Origin: a virus
Direction: 5' to 3' (one strand)
Length of the DNA: 64,000 nt
Virus record (IMG/VR): IMGVR_UViG_3300029286_002355
Span: 62,001 to 126,000 of that record
The position numbers and the translations under genes are program-made. Under the pieces are notes generated by a model. That model did not search any database. It had not been told where the DNA came from and saw only the letters and a program-made list of their open reading frames with translations. Numbering within the stretch: the first letter of the stretch is position 1; every line of letters starts with the position of its first letter. Positions 7,619-52,450 of this stretch are shown piece after piece.

Positions 7619-8701
7619 TTATCCTATAAGTTTAAGTAGGGAAACCTCGTCTATATCTTCCCCTCTTTGTTTCTCGGTTTTTTTAGAAGATCGCATGGCT
7701 CTATTTACCCATTCCAATTCTCCCGAAGCGGTTTTACTATTCTCAACTCTATCTTGCAATTCTCTTACCATCTCGAAAAACCACTTCTTTTTCCTCATTT
7801 CTTCAGGAGAGATATCTGGCCGTGGAGCTTTCAAAATCTCAACCAGTCTTCCGGGATTTGCTTCCATTCTGAAAATTCTATCCCCAAGATAAACCGCTTC
7901 ATCCATGGAATGTGTAACAATGATTACTGTCCCTTGAATTTCTTTCCAAAGCTCAACCAAAAGCTCTTGCATCTTCAACCGCATTTTTGGGTCAAGGGCT
8001 CCAAAAGGTTCATCCATCAGAAGGATCTTAGGTTGAAGTATAAGTGTAGCGGCTAAAGAAACTCTCTGCTGCATACCACCCGAAAGTTCTTGCGGGAATT
8101 TATCTTCCGATCCTTCCAAGCCAATCTTTTTAACCCATTCCCTTGCCTTGTCTCTTCTTTCTTTCCGTCCTGTTCCATTCAATTTTAATCCAAAAGATAT
8201 ATTGTCGATTACCGTAAGATGAGGAAGGAGTGAATATTTTTGATCAACAACTCCACGGTCAATTCCTGATCCTGTAATTTCTCCACCTGCAACAAAAGCT
8301 TTTCCAGAAGTAGGAGGAAATTGTGGCTCTAATCCCGCTATGATTCTCAATATGGTTGACTTACCACAACCCGAAGGCCCAACCAAGGCTACCATTTCAC
8401 CCATATTAGGAACATCATGAACTTCAAAAGTAACATCATGAATGGCTATTTTATCGCCAAATTTTTTTGTTACATTTTGAAAAGAAACAATGGGTGCCGC
8501 TTCCAACAAGGCTTTTGGCTGTTTAGAAGCTTCTATTTGTTTTGGGGCTTCTTTGATTTCAATTTTGTGGGTTTCAATAACCTCTTCAATCTTAACTATT
8601 TCATCCTGTTTAATAGCTTCTGCTTTAACAGATGGACTAGGTTCCAATTTAGGAGCTTTGCTAACCCAAAAAGGAGCTAAAATTTGTTTTAGACTTGTCA
8701 T
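7619..8701 (-). CDS. ABC transporter ATP-binding protein (SsuB/TauB/NrtD type)
   Basis: Residues from about 70 onward form an ABC ATPase: Walker A GPSGCGKST, Q-loop region (GVVDQKYSLLPHLT), signature LSGGMQQR, Walker B ILLMDEPFGALD and switch histidine VTHSMDEA. This pattern is typical of the nitrate/taurine/aliphatic sulphonate/pyrimidine-precursor importer group. An unusual N-terminal extension of about 65 residues (acidic and basic, low complexity) precedes the domain. I place the start at the ATG at 8701, one base past the permease stop, with an AGAAAGG upstream. It powers the permease encoded immediately upstream; the substrate is unknown. Importer genes are rare in phages. Confidence 0.9.
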   Translation of the reverse strand: MTSLKQILAPFWVSKAPKLEPSPSVKAEAIKQDEIVKIEEVIETHKIEIKEAPKQIEASKQPKALLEAAPIVSFQNVTKKFGDKIAIHDVTFEVHDVPNMGEMVALVGPSGCGKSTILRIIAGLEPQFPPTSGKAFVAGGEITGSGIDRGVVDQKYSLLPHLTVIDNISFGLKLNGTGRKERRDKAREWVKKIGLEGSEDKFPQELSGGMQQRVSLAATLILQPKILLMDEPFGALDPKMRLKMQELLVELWKEIQGTVIIVTHSMDEAVYLGDRIFRMEANPGRLVEILKAPRPDISPEEMRKKKWFFEMVRELQDRVENSKTASGELEWVNRAMRSSKKTEKQRGEDIDEVSLLKLIG

Positions 8702-8702
8702 G

Positions 8703-9566
8703 TTAGCCTTTCTTTCTGTTTTGAGGGAACAACCACACCCCTGTAACTTTCCAAAGTTTATCACATAATGTAGCTATTACAACAATAACAATAATGATGG
8801 CAAAAATTTTATTGGTACAGCCTCTACGAGAAGATGTTTCCATGAGATAACCAATACCGTTTTGAGCATTAACAACTTCTGCTAGAATAATCCATCCCCA
8901 ACCTACTCCATAAACCCCACGAAGATGATTCCATATAGAAGGCATAGCTACAGGAAGCAATACGTTTTTTACCAACTGCCATTGAGATGCCCCCTTTGTT
9001 TTCGCCACATCAAGGAATGATTCGCTTACGTCATCGATTGAACGAATGACCAAGGGGAGAAGCACAACAAAACAGGCAATAAAAAGAAATCCTATTTTTT
9101 GTATTTCATCAGAACCCCACCAAGCCAAGGTCAAGGGAATAAAACTGATAATAGGAACATAGGAACCAATTAAAGCTACGGGTTTGAAAAAAGAAGAAAT
9201 AGGTGTAAACGCTGCCATATAAGTTCCAAGAACAAGAGCTAAAATCGCAGCAAGAATAAAACCTGATGTTACACGGACAAAAGAGACCCCAACGCTTCTT
9301 AGTAAGCCCTGATCAAAATGAAGAATGGGAAATGCCTGTAGAACTTCGACAGGACTAGGGAGAATAATAGGCGGAAGCATTCTATCTTCAACCCTATCTC
9401 CATTTGTAGAAAACCACCAAAATCCTATCAGAAGAGCAAGAAACGAAACCGTGATAAGAATTGATCTTTCTTTGGCAAGCTCTTTACGAACAGGGAACTT
9501 GGCAATTCTTACGACAAGAGTTAGAAGCACAACCAACCCTAAAATTATTCCAATGAAGCTCCACAT
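8703..9566 (-). CDS. ABC transporter permease (SsuC/TauC family)
   Basis: The 287-residue integral membrane protein has about seven hydrophobic segments and the EAA coupling loop DVAKTKGASQWQLVKNVLLP near residues 188-207, which docks onto the ABC ATPase. The length and the VLPSP-like segment (ILPSPVEVLQAFP) are typical of SsuC/TauC/NrtB permeases; an extra N-terminal membrane segment precedes it. It is preceded by a stem-loop separating it from the substrate-binding gene and followed directly by the ATPase gene. Confidence 0.88.
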   Translation of the reverse strand: MWSFIGIILGLVVLLTLVVRIAKFPVRKELAKERSILITVSFLALLIGFWWFSTNGDRVEDRMLPPIILPSPVEVLQAFPILHFDQGLLRSVGVSFVRVTSGFILAAILALVLGTYMAAFTPISSFFKPVALIGSYVPIISFIPLTLAWWGSDEIQKIGFLFIACFVVLLPLVIRSIDDVSESFLDVAKTKGASQWQLVKNVLLPVAMPSIWNHLRGVYGVGWGWIILAEVVNAQNGIGYLMETSSRRGCTNKIFAIIIVIVVIATLCDKLWKVTGVWLFPQNRKKG

Positions 9567-9585
9567 AATTCCCTCGTTTCTTTAG

Positions 9586-9623
9586 CAAAAGGGAATGGAA
9601 GGTTTCTTCCACTCCCTTTTTTG
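9586..9623 (-). terminator. Intra-operon stem-loop between binding protein and permease genes
   Basis: AAAAGGGA-TGGAAG and CTTCCA-TCCCTTTT form a 14-pair stem with one mismatch and a GTTT loop in the 73-base gap. On the minus strand it is followed by only a short T run, so it is more likely a partial terminator or a 3'-end stabiliser for the binding-protein message, as is common in ABC operons. Confidence 0.6.
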
Positions 9624-9639
9624 CCAACATAGTTTTTGC

Positions 9640-11403
9640 CTATTCGGTTTCGAGAGGATATACCTTGATTTCGGTTCTTCGATTTTTCTTGTTTTGCTCC
9701 TTGTCGCTTGAATCTGTGCAACCGGGCAACGGGCTATCCCAACCATTTCCAACAACCTTGAACTTGTTAGGGTCAAAATTGGGATATTTGGTCAAAATAG
9801 ACTTCTTAACCGCTTCGGCTCTGTCATAGGACAATTTGCGAATAGCATCAGAAGGCACTAATCCCTTCATACTTCCATCGGTATTTCCTTCGATGACGAT
9901 GTAAGCATTACCGAAATTACCTGCAAGCATACCAATTTCAACAAGCGAATTTGGAATATTGGTATCATAGGTGGAATTCAAATCCCATTTACCAGATTCA
10001 AACCTAATCTGAACAGCCTTGGAAAGAATATTCCCTTCTCCAGCCTCAAGGGTCTTAAACACCATATTGGGACTGAAAACAGGCTGAGACAAATCCTGAA
10101 CGTCTTTATAGTCGTTAACCATTCCAAGAAGGAACTTGGAAGCCTTAACTTTGGCAGCAACAATAGGAGCATCAATAACCCCAAGTGACTGATAGATTGT
10201 TGAAGATTTATTCCAAATAGACTCAAAGTTAACTGGATTCATTTGGTCGCAGAAGAACTTGTAATTCTCTCTGTAATTGAGAAGATGGGCATCTCCGCTA
10301 GCAATACCACCATCTTTGCCAATCATCATTGCGCAATCCGCTACCGGAAGATTATAGGCCGCACTAAGATATTTGGCTGCAAGTTGGGGGTCTTTTCGAA
10401 CCATATCAACCCCCTCGAAAATACAGCGAATCATTTTTTCAACGATATCGGGATGATCGGTTGCAAAATCATTACGAACAGCCCAAACATCGAAGATAAC
10501 ATTATTGGCTGTAGCACTTGTAACCACCAATCTTGTTCCGGGGACTGAATCTGTAACCGTATAGATGTCAGGAGACCACCCCACGAAAGCATCAAACGAT
10601 GTATCCTGAACGAACAACTTAGCGGCTGAAGGAGCATCTTTTGTCCAACGGAAATCAATTTCGGCAGGATCAATACCCGCATTGATAAGCAGAATCATAA
10701 AGAAATTATGGCTAGGCGAATTCTGAGCAAGAACAACCTTGCACCTAACTCCATTCTTCATGCGGAAATCATTAATGGACTTGATATTGTTTCGAGAGAC
10801 AACCCCATCTCCACCATTTGAGTTATCAATGGCTTGAGCTACAATAGGAATAGTTCGTGAATCCTTTGACAAAGCAGGTGCAAAGAGAGCAATCATGTCC
10901 AATGTACCCCACAGAATATGAGAATGCCCACTCGCAAACAAATCTCTTGCCATGACAGGATCATCCACCAAACTAAGCTCAACGAAAAAGCCATACTTCT
11001 TATAGAAAAGACTTTCTTCGTTAGCCCCCATTCCGTTATTAGCCATGATGATTCCAGCCCATCCCGGCCATACATTAATAGGGAATTTCACCAAGAGTTT
11101 ACCGTTCTTGGTTGTTTTGTCATATGAGCTAACTGCCGTAACCGGAGGCATTACGCTATCTCCAATAAGCGAAACTGTATTAGTTCCTGCAAGCAATTTG
11201 GAGTTAATATCAACAGCAGTTTTGATTGCCGCCACTACATTACTCCCAAGGTTATTCAACTTATCCTTAAGAGCGTTAATGTTAATTGACGGATTTGAAG
11301 TCGGAGCAGGAGGGAACAACTTATCCTTCCACCTATAGCCCCCAATACTCAGTACGGCAATTACAGCCAATGCTACCAGAATTTTACCCTTTAGTGTCAT
11401 CAT
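9640..11403 (-). CDS. Substrate-binding protein fused to OmpA-like domain
   Basis: A 587-residue fusion. Residues 7-25 are a membrane anchor or uncleaved signal (ILVALAVIAVLSIGGY). Residues from about 80 to 420 resemble NMT1/SsuA-type periplasmic binding proteins (INVWPGWAGIIMANNG, then DLFASGHSHILWG and DAFVGWSPDIY). The last 130 residues are an OmpA-like peptidoglycan-binding domain (IVIEGNTDGS, SYDRAEAVKKSI, KNRRTEIKVYP). Proteins of this architecture are annotated in bacteria as 'phosphate ABC transporter substrate-binding/OmpA family'. The OmpA part implies function in a diderm envelope, tethering the binding domain to the cell wall. It lies between the PspA gene and the permease gene. 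Confidence 0.85.
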   Translation of the reverse strand: MMTLKGKILVALAVIAVLSIGGYRWKDKLFPPAPTSNPSININALKDKLNNLGSNVVAAIKTAVDINSKLLAGTNTVSLIGDSVMPPVTAVSSYDKTTKNGKLLVKFPINVWPGWAGIIMANNGMGANEESLFYKKYGFFVELSLVDDPVMARDLFASGHSHILWGTLDMIALFAPALSKDSRTIPIVAQAIDNSNGGDGVVSRNNIKSINDFRMKNGVRCKVVLAQNSPSHNFFMILLINAGIDPAEIDFRWTKDAPSAAKLFVQDTSFDAFVGWSPDIYTVTDSVPGTRLVVTSATANNVIFDVWAVRNDFATDHPDIVEKMIRCIFEGVDMVRKDPQLAAKYLSAAYNLPVADCAMMIGKDGGIASGDAHLLNYRENYKFFCDQMNPVNFESIWNKSSTIYQSLGVIDAPIVAAKVKASKFLLGMVNDYKDVQDLSQPVFSPNMVFKTLEAGEGNILSKAVQIRFESGKWDLNSTYDTNIPNSLVEIGMLAGNFGNAYIVIEGNTDGSMKGLVPSDAIRKLSYDRAEAVKKSILTKYPNFDPNKFKVVGNGWDSPLPGCTDSSDKEQNKKNRRTEIKVYPLETE

Positions 11404-13019: not shown

Positions 13020-14198
13020 CTACGAATCCAACGACTTACCGAAACATTCCCAATTAGTCACTCTAATTGCTTCTGGATCACCCATTACTTTTCCCTTATC
13101 ATCCGATGTTTTAACAACGGGGATTCCATTAATACTCCACAGTTTAATAACCATATTAAGAGCAGGAGAATTTGGAAAATCATTGGTAAAGAAGGTTCCA
13201 ATCCCAAACGAGCAATTAATTACATCCCTGCAATATCTTGAAATATCAACCGCTTTTCTGCAATCCAAGGCGTTACTAAAGATGATCGTTTTTGTCAAAG
13301 GATTAATCTTCATCTTTTTATAGTGCGCAACAATCTTGTCTGTAAACTCCATTTCGTTACCAGAATCGCATCGGACACCATCAAAAAGCTTAGCATAACG
13401 AAGATCGAAATCCTTAAGGAAGAGATCGGTTCCAAGTGTATCGGTAAGAGCAATACCCAAATTTCCGCCATAGACTTTAACCCAGTTTTCCATCCCGAAG
13501 AGGTTGCTATGACGAATTCCAAATAGGGCTTGCATGGCCTGATACCACTCATGGGCCTGAGTTCCTTTGGGAGTCATATTGTTTTGATACGATAGATAAA
13601 CATTGCTCGTACCAACAAACCGATTGAATGGCTTCATGTTTTCAACAACCATAGCCTGAGCCAAAAAGTCTTTACGTCTACGGGTTCCAAAATCTGTAGT
13701 GATGCAGTTCCAATCCTGAAGCTGATTCATTTTTTCTTTAGCCCTATCTGCTTCTCCAACTCTATTCCAATTAGTATCAATAATTTTGAAATAAAGTTCC
13801 GAAACGGTTGCCATCAGCTTAACTTCCCACAAAACCGTTTCGCACCAAGGGCCTTCGATATCAATAACTAAATTTTTCTCTTCATTGAGGGAAATCTTAA
13901 CCTGTTTAGGATTATAGCGGTAATTTCTGAGATAGTCAAAATACCAAGGCTTAAGATATGGGCAAGTCTTACGATACCATTCGATTTCGGATTCACTAAT
14001 GGCAAATAGCGGGAAAAAGGTGGAAACTTGATATTGCAATGCCTTAAGGAATTCTTCGTTGAATCTTTGTTTGCCCCTGTTGATAAAACGATAATGTGCA
14101 ATAGCATCGGGAAACAGTTCAAGAATTGCGGCTTGCATTGAAAACTTGTACTGATCGTCGTCAAGCATTGAACGGATTATTGTTTCATTTGTATTCAT
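13020..14198 (-). CDS. pncB: Nicotinate phosphoribosyltransferase
   Basis: The 392-residue protein matches PncB throughout: SMLDDDQYKFSMQ at the N-terminus, TDFGTRRRKDF, GTSNVYL, PKGTQAHEW, HSNLFGMENW, LTDTLGTDLFL, DGVRCDSG and FGIGTFFTND. The enzyme joins nicotinate to PRPP to give nicotinate mononucleotide, the entry point of NAD salvage. The window also encodes an NAD-dependent DNA ligase, so extra NAD supply would be useful to the phage. A strong host-type promoter lies upstream. Whether the adjacent ABC importer carries a nicotinate-related substrate is speculation. Confidence 0.93.
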   Translation of the reverse strand: MNTNETIIRSMLDDDQYKFSMQAAILELFPDAIAHYRFINRGKQRFNEEFLKALQYQVSTFFPLFAISESEIEWYRKTCPYLKPWYFDYLRNYRYNPKQVKISLNEEKNLVIDIEGPWCETVLWEVKLMATVSELYFKIIDTNWNRVGEADRAKEKMNQLQDWNCITTDFGTRRRKDFLAQAMVVENMKPFNRFVGTSNVYLSYQNNMTPKGTQAHEWYQAMQALFGIRHSNLFGMENWVKVYGGNLGIALTDTLGTDLFLKDFDLRYAKLFDGVRCDSGNEMEFTDKIVAHYKKMKINPLTKTIIFSNALDCRKAVDISRYCRDVINCSFGIGTFFTNDFPNSPALNMVIKLWSINGIPVVKTSDDKGKVMGDPEAIRVTNWECFGKSLDS

Positions 14199-14288: not shown

Positions 14289-14711
14289 TTATTTATTTTT
14301 TACCAACCTAAAATATAGCTTTTCTATTTTTTTAATAAAATCTTCCATAGAATTATCCCACTTTAGACAATTACACTGGAAACAACATGGTACTATATTG
14401 CCCTTAATATATCCCTTATTGCTATCCATTCTATCGATACCTTGATATTTGATTTCTTTTCTAAACTCTTTGCTTTCACCAAATAGAACAAAAGTATTAC
14501 TTGGACCATCCCCGCAATAATGACAATTTTTATACATAATTTCTCTTACATCTTTTTTGGATAATTGAAGGGGAAACCCTTTTGTCCTTGCCCTTTGTCT
14601 TAGCCCGTTAAACATTCTTTTAATTACCTTGCTGTCTGCGTAATCTTGGTCTTCGTATTTTTCTTGATAACGAACAACAGCCCGTTCAATCATGCCACAA
14701 CTTCTGCAATG
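14289..14711 (-). pseudogene. HNH endonuclease gene, 3' part (split by TnpB element)
   Basis: An ATG-initiated frame at 14289-14693 encodes 134 residues with an HNH/treble-clef nuclease core (CHYCG, GIDRMDSNKGY, NIVPCCFQCN), close to free-standing phage HNH endonucleases. The frame is open upstream of that ATG to 14711, where HCRSCG precedes the Met and the TnpB element begins. The matching N-terminal half lies on the far side of the element (16020-16148). Removing 14712-16019 joins them into one 183-residue protein whose N-terminal zinc ribbon (CDRC ... HCRSC) is completed across the junction. The shortened ATG product might still be made, but it lacks the ribbon. Confidence 0.75.
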
Positions 14712-14713
14712 AA

Positions 14714-15910
14714 CTACCCAGACACTAAAGATGTCTGGGTTTCTATAGGATAGTTCCTACCCTTTTGAAATCCCATATTGGTTAATGCAAAGTCTTTAAC
14801 GTTCTTGGAAGCATTAACGTCTCTATCATGCTCCGAACCACACTTCTTACATTTCCATACTCTTTCATCTAATGTGAGTTCGTGATAGACTTCTCCACAA
14901 ACATTACAAGTCTTGCTGGACGGTTCAAATCTTCCTATCTTTAGAAAATTCTTACCATACCAATCGGACTTGTACTGAAGCATTCGGGTTAAATTGAACC
15001 AACCTAAATCTCCTATAATTCTGTTTGTAGGTGCTTGATTTTGACTCTGCATGTTTTTAATAGATAAGTCTTCAATACAAATCGTCTCTACTTGGTTATC
15101 GTGAGTCAATTTGTGTGATAGTTTATCTAAGAAATCTTTCCTTTGTCTTGCTATTTTTGCGTGTAACTTACTTATTTGCTCCTTCTTTGATATATGTTTT
15201 GTTGAACCCTTTGTTAGTAACTCTAGTTCTTGCTGATGTTTTGCTAGTTTATCTTGAGATTGCCTGAAGTATTTTGGTGATTCGATTTTATCTCCGTTTG
15301 AAATCGTCAAGAACATTTTAACACCAAAGTCTATTCCAACGGTCGTACTTTCTTCAACCGCTGGCTTCTTAGGAAACTCTATATTTTGTTCTACCAATAT
15401 TGAGGCATAATACTTTCCGTCATTTCCTCTTGAAACAGTGCATTGTTTAATATTCCCTTCAAAAGCTCTATCAAATATGCACTTCAATCTATTATCCCTA
15501 TTCTTGGTTTTAATGAACTTCGGGAGGTAAAGACGATTGTTCTCAAAATCTGGTCTAATGGAGTTAGCTTCAGGACAACAGAACGATTGCTTGTTATTCT
15601 TTCTTGACTTAAATTTAGGGAATCCCATGTTAGAACGGAAGAAGTTGGTATATGCGTTGTCAAGATTTCTGATAGTTGCTTGTAACGATTGACTGCCTAT
15701 TTCGTCTAGCCATTCATGTTCTTTTTTTAGTTCTATAAGGCTATTAGCTAAATCTACCCATCCAATAGTTTTTTTAGTTTCCTTGTAGTGAGTAATCTTC
15801 TTTTGAAGGAAGTGATTATAGATGAATCGACAGGAGCCAAAGTGTTTTTCAAGCAAAACTCTTTGTCCTTTATTTGGATACAATCTATATTTGTAAGCTA
15901 GTAATTTCAT
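14714..15910 (-). CDS. tnpB: TnpB, RNA-guided endonuclease of IS605 family
   Basis: The 398-residue protein has the full TnpB layout: an N-terminal helical region (YRLYPNKGQRVLLEKHFG), the RuvC catalytic Asp in VGIDFGVK, Glu in CIEDLSIKNM, a four-Cys zinc finger (CNVCG ... CKKCG), and the last Asp in HDRDVNASKN. TnpB cleaves DNA guided by an omega RNA made from the element's right end and promotes element retention. The right-end hairpin is inside the coding region: it encodes the last residues TQTSLVSG, and the stop codon lies two bases from the element end. All catalytic residues are present, so it is probably active. Confidence 0.92.
   Translation of the reverse strand: MKLLAYKYRLYPNKGQRVLLEKHFGSCRFIYNHFLQKKITHYKETKKTIGWVDLANSLIELKKEHEWLDEIGSQSLQATIRNLDNAYTNFFRSNMGFPKFKSRKNNKQSFCCPEANSIRPDFENNRLYLPKFIKTKNRDNRLKCIFDRAFEGNIKQCTVSRGNDGKYYASILVEQNIEFPKKPAVEESTTVGIDFGVKMFLTISNGDKIESPKYFRQSQDKLAKHQQELELLTKGSTKHISKKEQISKLHAKIARQRKDFLDKLSHKLTHDNQVETICIEDLSIKNMQSQNQAPTNRIIGDLGWFNLTRMLQYKSDWYGKNFLKIGRFEPSSKTCNVCGEVYHELTLDERVWKCKKCGSEHDRDVNASKNVKDFALTNMGFQKGRNYPIETQTSLVSG
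14716..14740. repeat. Right-end hairpin of TnpB element 1
   Basis: ACCCAGACA and TGTCTGGGT form a perfect nine-pair stem around the loop CTAAAGA (TCTTTAG on the other strand). The same loop occurs at the left end and in both ends of element 2, with one change in one of them. Such subterminal hairpins are the binding sites of TnpA in IS200/IS605 elements and part of the omega RNA at the right end. Confidence 0.8.
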
Positions 15911-15981
15911 ACTACTAATCTTCTTCTATAACTATTTAGTCTTTTCCTCTAATTATTTTTGGATATTTTAGTCGCTTACAT

Positions 15982-16004
15982 CCACGACACTAAAGATGTC
16001 GTGG
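15982..16004. repeat. Left-end hairpin of TnpB element 1
   Basis: CCACGACA and TGTCGTGG form a perfect eight-pair stem around CTAAAGA. The flanking GAGCG and GTAAGCGA sequences are shared with the left end of element 2. Confidence 0.8.
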
Positions 16005-16148
16005 TTTTACGCTCCCAGAATAAACTTTCTTTTTGCCATTTTTTAATTTTCGACGCCAATACCCTCTTTCTATTTTACGAATTTTGTTACAACGATCACA
16101 TTTTACATATTTATATTCTCTACACTTTATTTTTTCTAAATTTTTCAT
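15990..16148 (-). pseudogene. HNH endonuclease gene, 5' part (truncated by TnpB element)
   Basis: A 52-codon frame starts at the ATG at 16148 (AAAGGG upstream). Its first 43 residues, to 16020, are the native N-terminus of the split HNH protein and contain VKCDRCNKIRK, half of a zinc ribbon. The last nine codons are read from the TnpB element and end at a TAG inside its left hairpin. The frame is too short for most gene finders. The leader upstream is highly structured (16168-16278). Confidence 0.7.
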
Positions 16149-16167
16149 TTTACCCTTTAAAATAGAC

Positions 16168-16278
16168 AAGCTCCTAACAGCTATCTTTGACGGCGGCTAA
16201 ACCATTTCAAGACAAGACCATTAAGAGCTTATCACTATATTTCTATTTTAAGGTTTAGCCGCCTTTCATAACATTATA
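16168..16278 (-). ncRNA. Structured leader or small RNA with 12-bp stem and pseudoknot
   Basis: A TATAAT box (16273-16278) is followed nine bases later by GGCGGCTAAACC, which pairs perfectly with GGTTTAGCCGCC (12 pairs; plus-strand arms 16192-16203 and 16252-16263), closing a 48-base loop. Within the loop AAGCTCTTAA can pair with TTAGGAGCTT downstream (16168-16177; ten pairs including one G-U), which contains AGGAG. The G+C-rich stem stands out in this AT-rich sequence. It could be a leader controlling the HNH gene, a separate small RNA, or a protein-binding site. I know no family that matches. Confidence 0.5.
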
Positions 16279-16316
16279 CAAGAATTTAACAGAAAAACCT
16301 CTATTTCTATCCATCA

Positions 16317-18310: not shown

Positions 18311-19156
18311 TTATCGTTCCAGTTTCTGAACGTAATAAAATCTGTAAAATGATCCATATTTAGTCCCGCTTCTACCCCTAAGAAACCCAGTAACTTCTGT
18401 GTATGTGTTACTATGTGGAAAATAAAAGTCACATTTGCATCTTCCTAAGCCATACATCTTATTATGTTCGAAGATTTTCCCTTCTGTCTTATATTTTAGA
18501 TACATATAAGCTTCTGCAACAGAATGGCAGAATGTTCCATCTTGAAGGACGATACCCTGAGAACAAAGGGGGCAAGAACTTGTTGTGTTCCTGTGGTATA
18601 TCTTTGCTTCGTATTCATGCCCGTTTGGACAGATCCACCAAACTTTATACTTGCTGTTGGGAAGAACGCCATATGGAGTTATGCCTTTATTTCTGGTTGG
18701 ATGCCATTCTTTTGTCAACTCTGGATTTTGAGTCGCCAGACAGTTATCTATACATGCCATATGATTTGAACAATACGGACATCCCCTAGTATTTTTGGTT
18801 CTGTTCCCGACAGAAGATTTCCACTGATGTCCCTTTGAGCATATCCATTTATATTTCTTGGAAGAAAACGGTAATACGTCATACGGACTACATTTATTTT
18901 CAAAAGACCACTCAAGTACTAGCTCTGGAAAAAGATTACCCAAACAATTTTCTAGGCTTACTATCTTATTTTCGCAATATGGACATCCATATCCACCATA
19001 TCTATTGTCTACTCTCGCCATCCAAGAATGACCACAACTGCATTTCCACCAAACCTTTTCTTTACTCCATACCGATATTTTAGATGGATCTAATTCATTT
19101 TTAGCATCATCCCAATCAATATATAACTTAGAATTCTTAACATATTCTCGTTTCAT
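18311..19156 (-). CDS. Zinc-ribbon repeat (DUF4379) protein with C-terminal nuclease-like domain
   Basis: From the ATG at 19156 the protein has about 281 residues. It contains three treble-clef zinc-ribbon repeats of the DUF4379 type (KVWWKCSCGHSW..., YKWICSKGHQW..., VWWICPNGHEY..., each followed by a CPYC/CPLC pair). A C-terminal domain follows with CDFYFPHSNTYTEVTGF, which looks like the D and E-x-[KT] core of a PD-(D/E)xK or VSR-like endonuclease. It is a shorter paralogue of the protein at 60795-62111. Such proteins probably act as DNA-binding selfish nucleases; this is inference. GGAG lies nine bases before the ATG, inside a leader with three matching repeats that could hide it. Confidence 0.7.
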   Translation of the reverse strand: MKREYVKNSKLYIDWDDAKNELDPSKISVWSKEKVWWKCSCGHSWMARVDNRYGGYGCPYCENKIVSLENCLGNLFPELVLEWSFENKCSPYDVLPFSSKKYKWICSKGHQWKSSVGNRTKNTRGCPYCSNHMACIDNCLATQNPELTKEWHPTRNKGITPYGVLPNSKYKVWWICPNGHEYEAKIYHRNTTSSCPLCSQGIVLQDGTFCHSVAEAYMYLKYKTEGKIFEHNKMYGLGRCKCDFYFPHSNTYTEVTGFLRGRSGTKYGSFYRFYYVQKLER

Positions 19157-19272
19157 TTTCGCAGTCTCCAAAAAAGTAGGCCCAAACCAATCACGAGACT
19201 GCGAAATCAAGAAGTGACCAGAATGGACCTACAAATTTTTCCTATTATATAAGTTTCGCAGTCTTATATAAT
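19157..19272 (-). promoter_or_regulatory. Predicted kissing-loop leader controlling the zinc-ribbon nuclease
   Basis: The minus-strand leader contains hairpin 1, ATTATATAAG-[ACTGCGAAA]-CTTATATAAT (ten perfect pairs; 19244-19272). Hairpin 2 pairs GTAGGTCCATTCTGGTCAC with GTGATTGGTTTGGGCCTAC (19 positions, 17 paired including G-U; 19176-19232). The loop of hairpin 2 contains TTTCGCAGTCTC. Its TTTCGCAGT is the exact complement of the whole hairpin 1 loop, and the full 12 bases are the exact complement of GAGACTGCGAAA, which includes the ribosome-binding site just before the ATG. Two exclusive pairings could therefore switch translation. A DNA operator or recombination-site reading of the three repeats is the alternative. 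Confidence 0.6.
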
Positions 19273-19292
19273 ATTTCTACGTAGAGACAGTT

Positions 19293-21311
19293 TCATCCTT
19301 CAATCAATTTCAGAAAATCTTCCTGAGTAATAATTGGGACATTTAGCTCAAGTGCTTTTTGGTATTTCCCTTTCATTGTCTCCCCATCAAAGACCAATGC
19401 CGTCAATTCTTTAGATACAGAAGCAAGTTTACCACCATTCTCTCCGACCATTCTTTCCATAGTATTTCTATCGGGCGAATCAAAGGAACCCGTGAAGCAG
19501 AACTTTTTCCCTGCCAATTTATTACTGGCCTGAGCAACCTTTTTAATGCTGACATACTTCAGAAGAAGCTTAATTTCTCCACGACGAGCTTTCCAAGAAG
19601 TAATGAAGCTGTTTGCCTTAGCTTGACCAAATCCGCTAATTTTCAAAAGATCGTCAACCGTCAATTTGTCAATATCATCAATGGAAGGAGCAATATCAGA
19701 AATGTCTTTTGCACTTGTCTGAATATTCTCAATTCCCAATGCCCGAATAAAAATAGGTAGCGAAACTTCCGTAACCGATTTAATACTTTCCAAAAGGTTA
19801 TCGTAAGTCTTCTGCCCCATTTGAGACTTAAGATATGCATACTTACGGAAAGGATGTTCTGTTGCCCTATCGTTATCAAGCATGTAATACATTTCAGCAA
19901 TATTGGAAACAATTTGCTTCTTGTCCCAAGCCATTTCCTCTTTATCGGTCAATTTTGAAATCGTCCCTGCCCCAAACCCCTTAACGCCAATTTCCTTGAA
20001 CCAATAATCAATCTTCTTGTTAAGCTGTGTCGAGCAATTGTAATTCTTGCAAACCAATTCAACCTTGTTATCATCCCAATCAATTGCCTCTCCGCAAGCA
20101 GGACATTTGGTGGGGATATCAATGGTCTTATTTCCCATCTTCTTTACTTTAACGATTTGGGGAATGATATCGCCCTTCTTCGCAATTAAAACGATACTGC
20201 CAATCTTAATTGCGTCTTTACCAACCAACGCCCCAAAATTATGAAGCGTAGCCCTTGTCATCATGGCTCCACCCAATTCAACGGGCTTCAGAATTCCAAC
20301 AGGCGTAAGCTTACCTGTTCTACCAACTCCAACTTCAACGCCAATCAATTCCGTCTCTTTTTGTTCGGGCGGAAATTTTACAGCACGATTTGATTTAGGC
20401 TTTCGTCCACCTGCAACAGAGCCCATTTTCTTTGCCTTTTTAATATCGTTTAACTTAACCACGATTCCGTCAATATCATAATGGAGCATATTTCTATCAA
20501 TCGCATCCATGTAATATTGAACAGCCTTGGCAATTTCAGCATATCCAATCCCAGTTTTGGTTCTTTTGGTTGATTTGATAAGAGTGGGAAAACCCAGCTT
20601 ATCCAAAAACTCATTCTTCTCAACTTCCGTATCAAAATCGTGTCGGCAAATTTCATAAGCAACAAATCGAAGCCCCTTCTTGCGGGTTTCTTCGGGGTCT
20701 TTTTCGTTCATGGCTCCCGCTGTAAAGTTTCTCGGATTCTTGTATTCTCCACCAACCGAAGTATGCCATTTCTTATAAAAGTCCTGTCGGTTCTTATGGC
20801 ACTCTCCACGAACTTCAATCTCGTCCTTAAAGGGGATCGTATGTTGAACCCCTTCTACCGTCTTGGCCTTTTCGGTAACATCAATACCTGTAATTCCATC
20901 CCCTCTCGTAAGAGCTTGAACTAATTTACCGCCCTTATAAAGAAGACCAAGAGAAAGACCATCCACCTTATGTTGAAGAACGAAAGAGGCATCCTTTAGA
21001 TCGGGATATTGAGATCGAAGCCATTGTTCAAACTGTTCAACCGAAAGCGACTTACTAAGAGACCCCATAGTAACCTGATGGGGAACATCTTGCCCCTGAA
21101 TGGCATCTACGGCAATACCACCTACTTCATTGAAAAAGTCATTGCCGGGTTCCAAAGCTTCGCATTCGTAATACTCCTGATCGTAGTCTTTGTCGGAAAT
21201 AGGCGAATCTCCATTGGACTCATAACGTTCGGCGCAATAACGCAAAAATCCGATACGATCACCAATTAGGGCCGACTTATCAACTTTCTTTTGCTTCGAG
21301 AAATCTTTCAT
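19293..21311 (-). CDS. ligA: NAD-dependent DNA ligase
   Basis: About 672 residues from the ATG at 21311, which has AAGGAG in front. The protein shows the LigA order: Ia domain, adenylation domain with the catalytic lysine in HKVDGLSL and TRGDGITG, OB fold, a four-Cys zinc finger (CPACGEAIDW ... CKNYNC), helix-hairpin-helix motifs (LLKISGFGQAKANSF) and a C-terminal BRCT domain (GKKFCFTGSFDS). The enzyme seals nicks using NAD and would act with the exonuclease, clamp and clamp loader on lagging strands. Most phages carry ATP-dependent ligases, but NAD-type ligases are known from some large phages. Confidence 0.95.
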   Translation of the reverse strand: MKDFSKQKKVDKSALIGDRIGFLRYCAERYESNGDSPISDKDYDQEYYECEALEPGNDFFNEVGGIAVDAIQGQDVPHQVTMGSLSKSLSVEQFEQWLRSQYPDLKDASFVLQHKVDGLSLGLLYKGGKLVQALTRGDGITGIDVTEKAKTVEGVQHTIPFKDEIEVRGECHKNRQDFYKKWHTSVGGEYKNPRNFTAGAMNEKDPEETRKKGLRFVAYEICRHDFDTEVEKNEFLDKLGFPTLIKSTKRTKTGIGYAEIAKAVQYYMDAIDRNMLHYDIDGIVVKLNDIKKAKKMGSVAGGRKPKSNRAVKFPPEQKETELIGVEVGVGRTGKLTPVGILKPVELGGAMMTRATLHNFGALVGKDAIKIGSIVLIAKKGDIIPQIVKVKKMGNKTIDIPTKCPACGEAIDWDDNKVELVCKNYNCSTQLNKKIDYWFKEIGVKGFGAGTISKLTDKEEMAWDKKQIVSNIAEMYYMLDNDRATEHPFRKYAYLKSQMGQKTYDNLLESIKSVTEVSLPIFIRALGIENIQTSAKDISDIAPSIDDIDKLTVDDLLKISGFGQAKANSFITSWKARRGEIKLLLKYVSIKKVAQASNKLAGKKFCFTGSFDSPDRNTMERMVGENGGKLASVSKELTALVFDGETMKGKYQKALELNVPIITQEDFLKLIEG

Positions 21312-21333
21312 AGTATCTCCTTTTACTTGCTTA

Positions 21334-21359
21334 ATTATACAATCTTTTCCCATCGTCAA
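21334..21359 (-). promoter_or_regulatory. Candidate promoter before ligA
   Basis: TATAAT (21334-21339) lies 22 bases upstream of the ligA ATG. A TTGACG is found upstream but the spacer is only 14 bases, so the -35 box is uncertain. Confidence 0.45.
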
Positions 21360-21406
21360 TGAAGATACTGTAACAGAAATGCAGACAAAAAGCAAGCATA
21401 AAAGAT

Positions 21407-42888: not shown

Positions 42889-43860
42889 TCAATAAATAAA
42901 AATAGGAATTTCTTCTACTTTACCTATTCTTTTTAGTTGTTTCGCTTTTCTTCTTATTCTAACCAATGCATTATCTACGGCTTTAGTTGGATATCTATGT
43001 CTATATTTCTTAGACAAATTACCCGCAATTTCGTTGTATGATGAACTGGTTAAAAACTCATTAAGAACCTTCTTTTCAAACTCGGACAGTTGTTTTGCCA
43101 ATGTATCGAGTGTTACCTCATAAGCTTCTTTGCCCTCTGTTATTTTGACTACTGTTGCTTTCTCGTCAGGAAGTATATTGGCAAACGTATTATTATTAGA
43201 ATCGTTCCCCCTATTAACAGGGCAACTATCAATCGAAACCGCTTTGTTAATCGATTGATCTTTTTGTCTATTTTTCGAAGCATTCAAAATGGTAATTAGA
43301 TGTCTGCGTATACACATCTTTGCAAAGTTAAGAAAACTCATACCTTTACCTTTTTTGAATCCCGGTATTGATTTAAACCGTAAAGCTATCAACGACTCTT
43401 GGTATACGTCAACCGTTTGCAATCCTTTTATATATGGAAATTGTTTAAGTGCTATATTAATTAGATACCCATGAATATAAAGATGAATTCTATCGAACTG
43501 TTTTTTACTTTCTATGGTGTCTGGATTTTTTTTGATTCCAATAGCAATATTGTCTAATTTTTTTTGAACTTGCTTTGGAGTTCCTATCAATGGATCATGA
43601 ACTATTGGTAGTTTGAAAAGAATATCCTCTACAACAGAAGACTTCCTTCCAAACGATTCAATCTCAATTTCTGAATCTTCTATTTCTTCAATTTCTACTA
43701 ACGCTGTATCAATGCCCTTAATCTCTCCGATACTGGGAGAATCGACATCCATATTTTTACATAAGGCAAGTTCAGCCTCTTTGACTTTCTCTTTTTGACT
43801 CTTAACTCTTTTGACTGCTTTAACTACTTTTGACCTAAATTGATTTTTCTCTACTATCAT
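42889..43860 (-). CDS. SigH-like RNA polymerase sigma factor
   Basis: About 323 residues from the ATG at 43860 (GGGAG ten bases upstream; a TTG at 43902 is an alternative). The centre matches sigma region 2 of the SigH/sporulation type: DVYQESLIALRFKSIPGFKKGKGMSF, then NFAKMCIRRHLITILNASKN, which carries the -10 recognition helix. A region-4-like HTH follows (FLTSSSYNEIAGNLSKKY). The N-terminal 100 residues are an acidic extension. It should redirect host RNA polymerase to phage promoters; the repeated CTGTATAATATCTCT element is a natural candidate target. Confidence 0.85.
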   Translation of the reverse strand: MIVEKNQFRSKVVKAVKRVKSQKEKVKEAELALCKNMDVDSPSIGEIKGIDTALVEIEEIEDSEIEIESFGRKSSVVEDILFKLPIVHDPLIGTPKQVQKKLDNIAIGIKKNPDTIESKKQFDRIHLYIHGYLINIALKQFPYIKGLQTVDVYQESLIALRFKSIPGFKKGKGMSFLNFAKMCIRRHLITILNASKNRQKDQSINKAVSIDSCPVNRGNDSNNNTFANILPDEKATVVKITEGKEAYEVTLDTLAKQLSEFEKKVLNEFLTSSSYNEIAGNLSKKYRHRYPTKAVDNALVRIRRKAKQLKRIGKVEEIPIFIY

Positions 43861-43911
43861 TCCCTTTAATCTCCCTTTATTGGGGGATCGGGGAATCCTC
43901 AAAGTTTCATA

Positions 43912-51709: not shown

Positions 51710-52450
51710 TTATATTCCGTTATAAATTAAATTGCACTTTTTATTGCAATCAAAAAAGTATGTTTGTAATTTCGATGAACGTAATTTTTCATCGTCTAAT
51801 CTTTTTTGAATTATATTTTGAAAATCCTCTCCTTGATTTACGCCTATTCCCTCAAATCCATTATTTGAATAATACATGTGATATGTGTCAGGAGATAAAT
51901 CCTCTAATTCTAGCGAAGACGTAAAAGAAGCATATGGGATTATTATAAGCCGATATCCATTTATATTTTGATATTTCTTTATCTTAGAGCATATTCCATC
52001 TATCATCTTCTGAACAAGGAATGAGGAATTGGGGCAATAACAGCAAATACTTTCATCTATATTGCCAGTCGCCACTGAATTTTTATCTACAGGCTTCGTA
52101 TTGTGAATTTTCTTGTCGGTTTCATTGTCTAAATTTACAGTAAAACATTCTATAATGACTTTTGCATTATCGTCAACAAAATCAGGAGTCAACCCGCTTA
52201 TATCTTTCTCGTATTCAAGATGTAATTTTTCTTGGTTGATGAAATGTTCTGATATTGACAACTCATTTATAAATTCTAGTCCCTGAATGTTTTTTCTATG
52301 AGATTCTTTTTCTTTACTATTTATTAGCGAAATTAACTTTTTTAGTATCTTTTGTTGAGATGATTGACCAAAATTAGGCAATATCCTTTTTAAGTTTTCT
52401 TTAATGGACGAATTCATTTTTAGTGTATCTATTTCTTCCGTTATATTCAT
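51710..52450 (-). CDS. Putative restriction endonuclease-like protein
   Basis: The 246-residue protein has a helical N-terminus and a region LHLEYEKDISGLTPDFVDDNAKVIIECFTVN, which resembles the PD-...-E-x-x nuclease core (PDF followed by IIECF). No family is certain. It is tightly packed between two methylase genes, with a four-base overlap upstream, which supports a restriction role. Confidence 0.5.
   Translation of the reverse strand: MNITEEIDTLKMNSSIKENLKRILPNFGQSSQQKILKKLISLINSKEKESHRKNIQGLEFINELSISEHFINQEKLHLEYEKDISGLTPDFVDDNAKVIIECFTVNLDNETDKKIHNTKPVDKNSVATGNIDESICCYCPNSSFLVQKMIDGICSKIKKYQNINGYRLIIIPYASFTSSLELEDLSPDTYHMYYSNNGFEGIGVNQGEDFQNIIQKRLDDEKLRSSKLQTYFFDCNKKCNLIYNGI

Follow-up and report, generated by a model that had tools for sequence, protein, structure and literature searches.

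A predicted two-state leader hiding the ribosome-binding site of a DUF4379 endonuclease gene in a phage genome

The DUF4379 gene and the leader in front of it

The window analysed in this study, a stretch of 64,000 nucleotides from a phage genome of 186 kb, carries on its minus strand a DUF4379 (PF14311) gene (18311-19156) whose product has three zinc domains of the treble-clef type and, C-terminally, a motif resembling those of nucleases (DFYFP..EVTGF). In the preliminary description this gene was taken to encode a zinc-ribbon nuclease, and the three DUF4379 domains and the matches of the product to phage endonuclease families support that assignment. The product stops about 40 residues before the end of its paralogs, and the nuclease is therefore possibly degenerate; the truncated C end (18311-18420) abuts the SD of the next gene. 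Upstream lies, on the same strand, a gene for an NAD-dependent DNA ligase (19293-21395, with 21311 as the likely start), which has a TGTATAAT promoter of its own. The genome is rich in mobile elements (TnpB, LAGLIDADG, GIY-YIG and HNH). Judging from the translations, positions 7619-11403 and 13020-14198 of the window encode an ABC transporter set (an ATPase, a permease and a binding protein that carries a fused OmpA-like end) and an apparent nicotinamide phosphoribosyltransferase.

The minus-strand stretch between the ligase stop (19293) and the start of the DUF4379 gene (19156), here called leader A, contains two hairpins and three short segments, S1, S2' and S3, all within 19157-19273. Hairpin 1 (19243-19273; -6.6 kcal/mol) has the nine-base loop originally described, ACTGCGAAA, on a perfect stem that comprises 11 pairs (TATTATATAAG/CTTATATAATA) rather than ten. 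The upstream sense copy S1 (AGACTGCGAAA, 19254-19264) consists mostly of this loop. Hairpin 2 (19176-19232; -24.3 kcal/mol) is built from an outer stem of 9 bp (GTAGGTCCA/TGGGCCTAC), a UU/UU internal loop and an inner stem of 8 bp (CTGGTCAC/GTGATTGG), and its apical loop holds the antisense element S2' (TTTCGCAGTCTC, 19195-19206). Eleven bases spanning the loop of hairpin 1 are perfectly complementary to S2', and all nine bases of that loop can pair with the loop of hairpin 2, just as had been claimed. S2' is also exactly complementary to S3 (GAGACTGCGAAA, 19157-19168), with which it forms 12 bp of -20.8 kcal/mol when folded as a hairpin. S3 comprises the end of the SD and the entire spacer between the SD and the AUG, and directly abuts the start codon (ATG, 19156-19154). 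The complementarity of the loop to the ribosome-binding segment over 12 bases, as first described, is thus exact, but S3 includes only the last three bases (GAG) of the SD sequence GGAG. Because S1:S2' and S2':S3 both require S2', they are mutually exclusive, as had been pointed out. Of the two-state design that had been proposed, the DNA itself displays a single antisense loop that can pair with either of two sense segments but not with both, the ribosome-binding region being one of the two; the switching is a prediction from these pairings.

Since a run of six T residues (19170-19175) directly follows it, hairpin 2 also resembles an intrinsic terminator: it has the expected G+C-rich stem and subsequent U run, with a loop that exceeds the size allowed in our terminator scan. 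The promoter motif TGTATAAT(AT) occurs in 51 copies in the genome, 43 of them on the coding-rich minus strand and 8 on the other, and many are located just upstream of starts with no clear -35 element. No copy of TGTATAAT is present in the 136-nt gap between the ligase and DUF4379 genes. A near match in the second arm of hairpin 1 (TATATAAT) was rejected as a promoter, as its 7 versus 9 copies reveal no strand bias. Transcripts of leader A therefore probably originate at the ligase promoter and read through the terminator-like hairpin. In nested, pseudoknot-free models of leader A, the choice of 5' end shifted the probability of S2':S3 between 0.03 and 0.95 and that of hairpin 2 between almost 0 and 0.97. 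A weak sigma-70 region 2 protein is encoded at 42889-43902 of the window.

Rarity and recurrence of the arrangement

Each SD-bearing start was scored for a complement of its start region lying upstream and for a second segment, farther upstream, able to pair with that complement. Among the 373 starts of the genome, leader A obtained the highest S1-S2'-S3 score, which was matched by none of 2000 dinucleotide shuffles. Its 10-base core, GACTGCGAAA, occurs three times in the genome, every time within leader A. Perfect stems of 11 bp or more that enclose a loop of 3-12 bases number 8 in the genome, hairpin 1 among them, where shuffled genomes had 0-2, and the outer stem of hairpin 2 was reached in 43 of 5000 shuffles. 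The second-best score belongs to another leader of the same genome, leader B, for which shuffles as good were likewise absent (0/2000). In 159 other loci bearing DUF4379 genes, the best of 1350 starts (759 + 591) scored below both leaders, and none of 79 other loci had an exact triplet at an RBS. A third exact triplet in the present genome (11882-12010) falls within the tail of a TnpB gene, and we took it to be a feature of the transposon. Of the four DUF4379 paralogs, two have no such S1-S2'-S3 layout.

Leader B (minus strand, L006:14180-14400, corresponding to 52180-52400 of the genome; the operon is at 52212) consists, in order, of a TGTATAAT promoter, S1 (AAGCCGCCAA), ACAAAAGCCC, S2' (TTGGCGGCTTCT), GGGCTTTTGT and S3 (AGAAGCCGCCAA). 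Here, S3 runs into the ATG of an ORF of 61 residues, the TGA of which overlaps the ATG of a second DUF4379 endonuclease gene. Leaders A and B share no sequence outside the SD. Nevertheless, the register of S3 is identical in both (GGAG, nine bases, AUG), the order of elements is S1-P1-S2'-P2'-S3 in both, and the enclosing hairpins are alike: in each, a UU/UU internal loop separates the outer stem (9-10 bp) from an inner one, and S2' lies in the apical loop. When the two leaders are aligned on this register, they differ at roughly half of the S positions, and each difference is matched in S1 and S2', a comparison of two cases that carries no covariation statistic. Such a pattern would be expected of a switch that is conserved while its sequence is free to vary.

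A third arrangement, leader E (16143-16280, minus strand), precedes a probable half-gene for an HNH endonuclease. The short zinc-ribbon ORF at 15990-16148, which has no family match of its own, is probably the N-terminal half, and an HNH/endonuclease VII-like protein (14289-14693) probably represents the C-terminal half of the same gene. A TnpB (OrfB_IS605) element (14714-15910) lies between the two on the same strand, and the region 14289-16148 is thus probably a single HNH endonuclease gene interrupted by a TnpB element of the IS605 type. Leader E starts with the promoter motif TGTATAAT (16273-16280) and the transcript start region (together 16267-16280), and its S1 (GGCGGCTAAACC, 16252-16263) lies less than about 20 nt from the predicted transcript start. 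Next come the 5' sequestering strands T (CCTTAAAATAGA) and U (GATAAGCTCTTAATGGT) at 16217-16253, S2' (GGTTTAGCCGCC, 16192-16203), which lies within the T/U hairpin and is a perfect 12-bp complement of S1, and the 3' strands U' and T' (16153-16181), of which T' overlaps the SD AAAGGG. A 12-bp S1:S2' match of this kind was not found in any of 3000 shuffles. The fold with S1:S2' (-35.9 kcal/mol) and the one hiding the SD (-36.2 kcal/mol) are nearly equal in energy, and the SD is unpaired to 71% when S1:S2' is enforced versus 35% when it is not. As S1:S2' crosses T:T'/U:U' and S1 abuts T, the two states could, on geometric grounds, hardly coexist. In the predicted folds of leaders B and E, S1 is located outside any hairpin loop.

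A scan for two crossing long helices among the 85 leaders of at least 80 nt in the genome, with thresholds that were fixed after leaders A, B and E were known, returned exactly these three, and nothing was returned from shuffles (0 in 20 x 85). With slightly looser settings, 9 of 744 leaders from other genomes passed, where shuffles gave 0-2; the natural background would therefore be about 1% of leaders. On sequence, leaders A, B and E share the topology S1 - P1 - S2' - P2' - start region, and each precedes an endonuclease gene or operon.

The repeats might in principle be scars of insertion or gene conversion, or products of chance, with no regulatory role. The wealth of mobile elements in the genome and the absence of homologous leaders from the collections searched would be in keeping with this. 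We nevertheless consider this extremely improbable in view of the shuffling results and of the recurrence of the arrangement with unrelated sequence at three endonuclease genes; moreover, a target-site duplication makes no inverted copy. Likewise, the three 11-bp repeats could be DNA operators, for example for autorepression by the endonuclease, since they are present in three copies and both orientations near a gene start, and I-TevI of phage T4 is known to repress its own late promoter (PMC2988022). This view would not account for the position of S3 in the spacer between SD and AUG, with equal register in leaders A and B, or for the orientation S, S', S in both. In addition, the enclosing helices have no role at the DNA level, and leader E has only two inverted copies together with an unrelated SD-hiding helix. 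An operator function thus appears very improbable.

RNA structures that hide the RBS of homing endonuclease genes have been described for I-TevI, I-TevII, I-TevIII and segB of T4 and for mobE of Aeh1 (PMC2988022, PMC3014915). The T4-type structure is a single hairpin, which is undone when initiation at a late promoter removes its 5' arm (PMC2988022, PMC3014915). The genome under study has an example of this kind. In the leader of a GIY-YIG homing endonuclease gene (minus strand, L005:14900-15070, genome position 33950), the SD and ATG pair over 12 bp with the promoter motif: GGTTATATTATG pairs with TATAATATAACC, and the latter is part of the gene's own TGTATAAT motif. This plain SD-hiding hairpin, with a promoter overlapping its 5' arm, reproduces the I-TevI arrangement in an unrelated phage. 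Leader A is similar to the T4 and Aeh1 cases in that the RBS of a phage endonuclease gene would be hidden by RNA structure and embedded in the transcription unit of another gene, and its predicted 12-bp S2':S3 pairing would place the start region in a strong helix of an RNA initiated upstream, as is the case for I-TevI and mobE. It differs from them in that its antisense loop can pair with either of two sense segments but not with both, the upstream one being a competitor, and in that it has no recognisable phage-type promoter, whereas the T4-type genes have their own late promoter in or beside the hairpin.

These similarities raise the question of whether leader A is just a plain terminator-like leader, in which ligase transcripts terminate at hairpin 2, any RNA that reads through has its SD hidden by the hairpin 2 loop, and S1 has no role beyond, at most, the stability of hairpin 1. 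The terminator-like appearance of hairpin 2 with its T run, the strength of S2':S3 on its own, and the plain hairpins of the GIY-YIG gene and of the T4 and Aeh1 endonucleases (PMC2988022) are all compatible with this explanation. Against it, the 11-base match of S1 to S2' falls right on the loop of hairpin 1, whose 11-bp stem is of a kind rare in this genome, and leaders B and E also carry an upstream S1. Indeed, this competitor strand is what sets leaders A, B and E apart from the GIY-YIG hairpin. We therefore regard a leader with no switch as rather unlikely.

Antisense-loop leaders in other phages

In viral contigs, no homologues were found of the DUF4379 protein, the ligase, the neighbouring ATPase or the small ORF of leader B, and the exact triplets of the leaders were likewise absent from them. 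A blastn search of phages with leader A gave no match, and the matches of leader B in phages were weak and short (E of about 0.9) and were judged to be due to chance. No homologous leader of A was present in the collections searched. Also, an Rfam search of the window returned nothing at gathering score, leaders A and B did not match the covariance models of int-alpA (RF02996) and C4 (RF01695) even at E values up to 10, and the genome has no int-alpA RNA.

In other phages, int-alpA RNAs, a family reportedly introduced by Weinberg in 2017, are located directly ahead of DUF4379 endonuclease genes in three loci, where they score above the gathering threshold (L071:2271-2340, L090:3251-3317 and L094:3717-3787), and look-alikes precede DUF4379 genes in another seven (L054, L064, L066, L068, L072, L075 and L088). 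In these int-alpA-type leaders the loop of a hairpin finds its complement in an SD-like copy downstream, and often in the SD as well. Alignment with MAFFT and RNAalifold gave no consensus for the int-alpA-like leaders, and covariation was therefore assessed by permutation instead. When tails were swapped among the 12-13 int-alpA-type leaders, none of 20000 permutations gave loop-tail pairing as good as that of each loop with its own tail. For eight leaders that had not been chosen for complementarity, this was the case for 5 of 20000 permutations at the best site and for 116 of 20000 at the second site. The loops of int-alpA-type leaders thus covary with downstream SD-like sense copies, and one antisense loop with two sense partners is therefore a recurring theme. 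It should be noted that antisense-loop hairpins were not enriched over all DUF4379 starts (5% versus 5%), so that we do not extend this claim to all such genes.

Leaders A and B resemble int-alpA in having a loop complementary to a downstream SD-like sequence and one antisense loop for two sense copies. However, int-alpA RNAs form a three-way junction with conserved CUAG, CGAAAAG and CCUG motifs and have both copies downstream, features that leaders A and B do not share. The C4 antisense RNA of phages P1 and P7 blocks its target in trans. It lies within the leader of the operon that it silences, as the S2' loops lie within the leaders of the genes that they would silence. C4 is a processed RNA acting in trans; for leaders A and B, pairing in cis would suffice. 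A trans-acting RNA may still be envisaged: a short RNA ending at the T run, or processed, could use the S2' loop to block S3 in trans, for instance on the mRNA of an incoming phage. The shared logic of a closing stem, an antisense loop, a U-rich tail and a target over a downstream SD speaks for this, as do the int-alpA RNAs and look-alikes at the DUF4379 genes of other phages. On the other hand, it presupposes a short RNA, and both the failure of leaders A and B to match either family and the absence of int-alpA from this genome argue against it. Altogether, such an RNA seems improbable to us.

Several other leaders came to light in these loci. Three endonuclease leaders (L072:3602-3722, L074:3540-3713 and L094:800-954) have a hairpin loop with an anti-SD sequence (ACTCCTA, CTCCTAAC and TCCTTTC, respectively) and two downstream sense copies. 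An int-alpA RNA at L081:6051-6119 precedes an ORF for a helicase/ATPase-like protein of 653 residues rather than a DUF4379 gene, and a RAGATH-18 RNA is found near a DUF4379 gene in a phage locus (L079:2529-2592). The leader of TnpV (PF14198) genes at L109:957-1160 and L131:442-645, which has no Rfam match, contains a GTAAATATCCTT/AAGGATATTTAC helix that hides the SD and a TTGGCATCA/TGATGCCAA helix that crosses it, and a GTGATGC sequence farther upstream can capture the first strand.

A possible switch on selfish nuclease genes

Homing endonucleases need to be restrained from acting at the wrong time, and the T4-like answer to this need is a single hairpin tied to promoter timing. For leader A, we favour, with moderate confidence, the reading that it is a two-state leader that hides the RBS and gates a DUF4379 (putatively homing-type) endonuclease gene. 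The two-state leader is probably a real switch on selfish nuclease genes. Control of homing endonucleases by a hidden RBS being already known from I-TevI of T4 and from mobE, the competitor strand is best read as a novel variation on it.

In the hidden state of the predicted switch, S2' would pair with S3 and thereby mask both the last SD bases and everything between the SD and the AUG, so that ribosomes could not start. In the open state, the upstream S1 would act as a release strand that takes S2' and leaves S3 free. This presumes that the leader RNA is made and folds as drawn, and the purpose of the switch would be to limit how much of a selfish nuclease is made, or when. As S1 is transcribed first, it could capture S2' before S3 exists. 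The short distance between S1 and the predicted 5' end in leaders B and E (less than about 20 nt in both) suggests that the open state would prevail during transcription, while the hidden state would arise afterwards, or in RNAs in which S1 is held elsewhere. Because hairpin 1 displays S1 in its loop, a 9-base kiss with the loop of hairpin 2 is possible in leader A; in leaders B and E, a linear S1 strand near the 5' end of the transcript would serve instead. Candidate triggers are the choice of promoter, passage through the terminator-like hairpin 2, the kinetics of transcription, and an RNA acting in trans.

Mutually exclusive helices that set the freedom of the SD are familiar from bistable attenuators and pseudoknot riboswitches (erm-type and preQ1/SAM-II type). 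The leaders described here are alike in this respect, with no leader peptide or ligand pocket identified in them. In metastable toxin mRNAs of the hok/fbi type, an early-made 5' strand alters the partner of an antisense segment, whereas the present leaders involve no toxin or antitoxin RNA and no partner at the 3' end.

That a single phage carries the same two-state topology three times, in unrelated sequences, suggests that switches of this kind evolve easily and are selected on mobile nuclease genes. With three instances in one genome, this variant of control is testable, and the three leaders, the simple GIY-YIG leader as a control and the two paralogs lacking the layout form a ready test set. 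For int-alpA-type RNAs, a possible function would be control in cis of nuclease translation by an antisense loop and a decoy. It is conceivable, though in our opinion doubtful, that bistable leaders constitute a general class of safeguards on the selfish genes of nucleases and transposons, in which an early S1 competes with the RBS region for one antisense segment or crosses the hiding helix, and of which leaders A, B and E, the int-alpA-type leaders and the TnpV leader would be convergent members.

Lastly, we considered that S1 might itself be captured by upstream sequence in read-through RNA. The corresponding p-values were about 0.02-0.05 for leader B and about 0.1 for leader E, and leader A would fit through hairpin 1. 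This hints at upstream capture, which we put forward as a guess with weak support.
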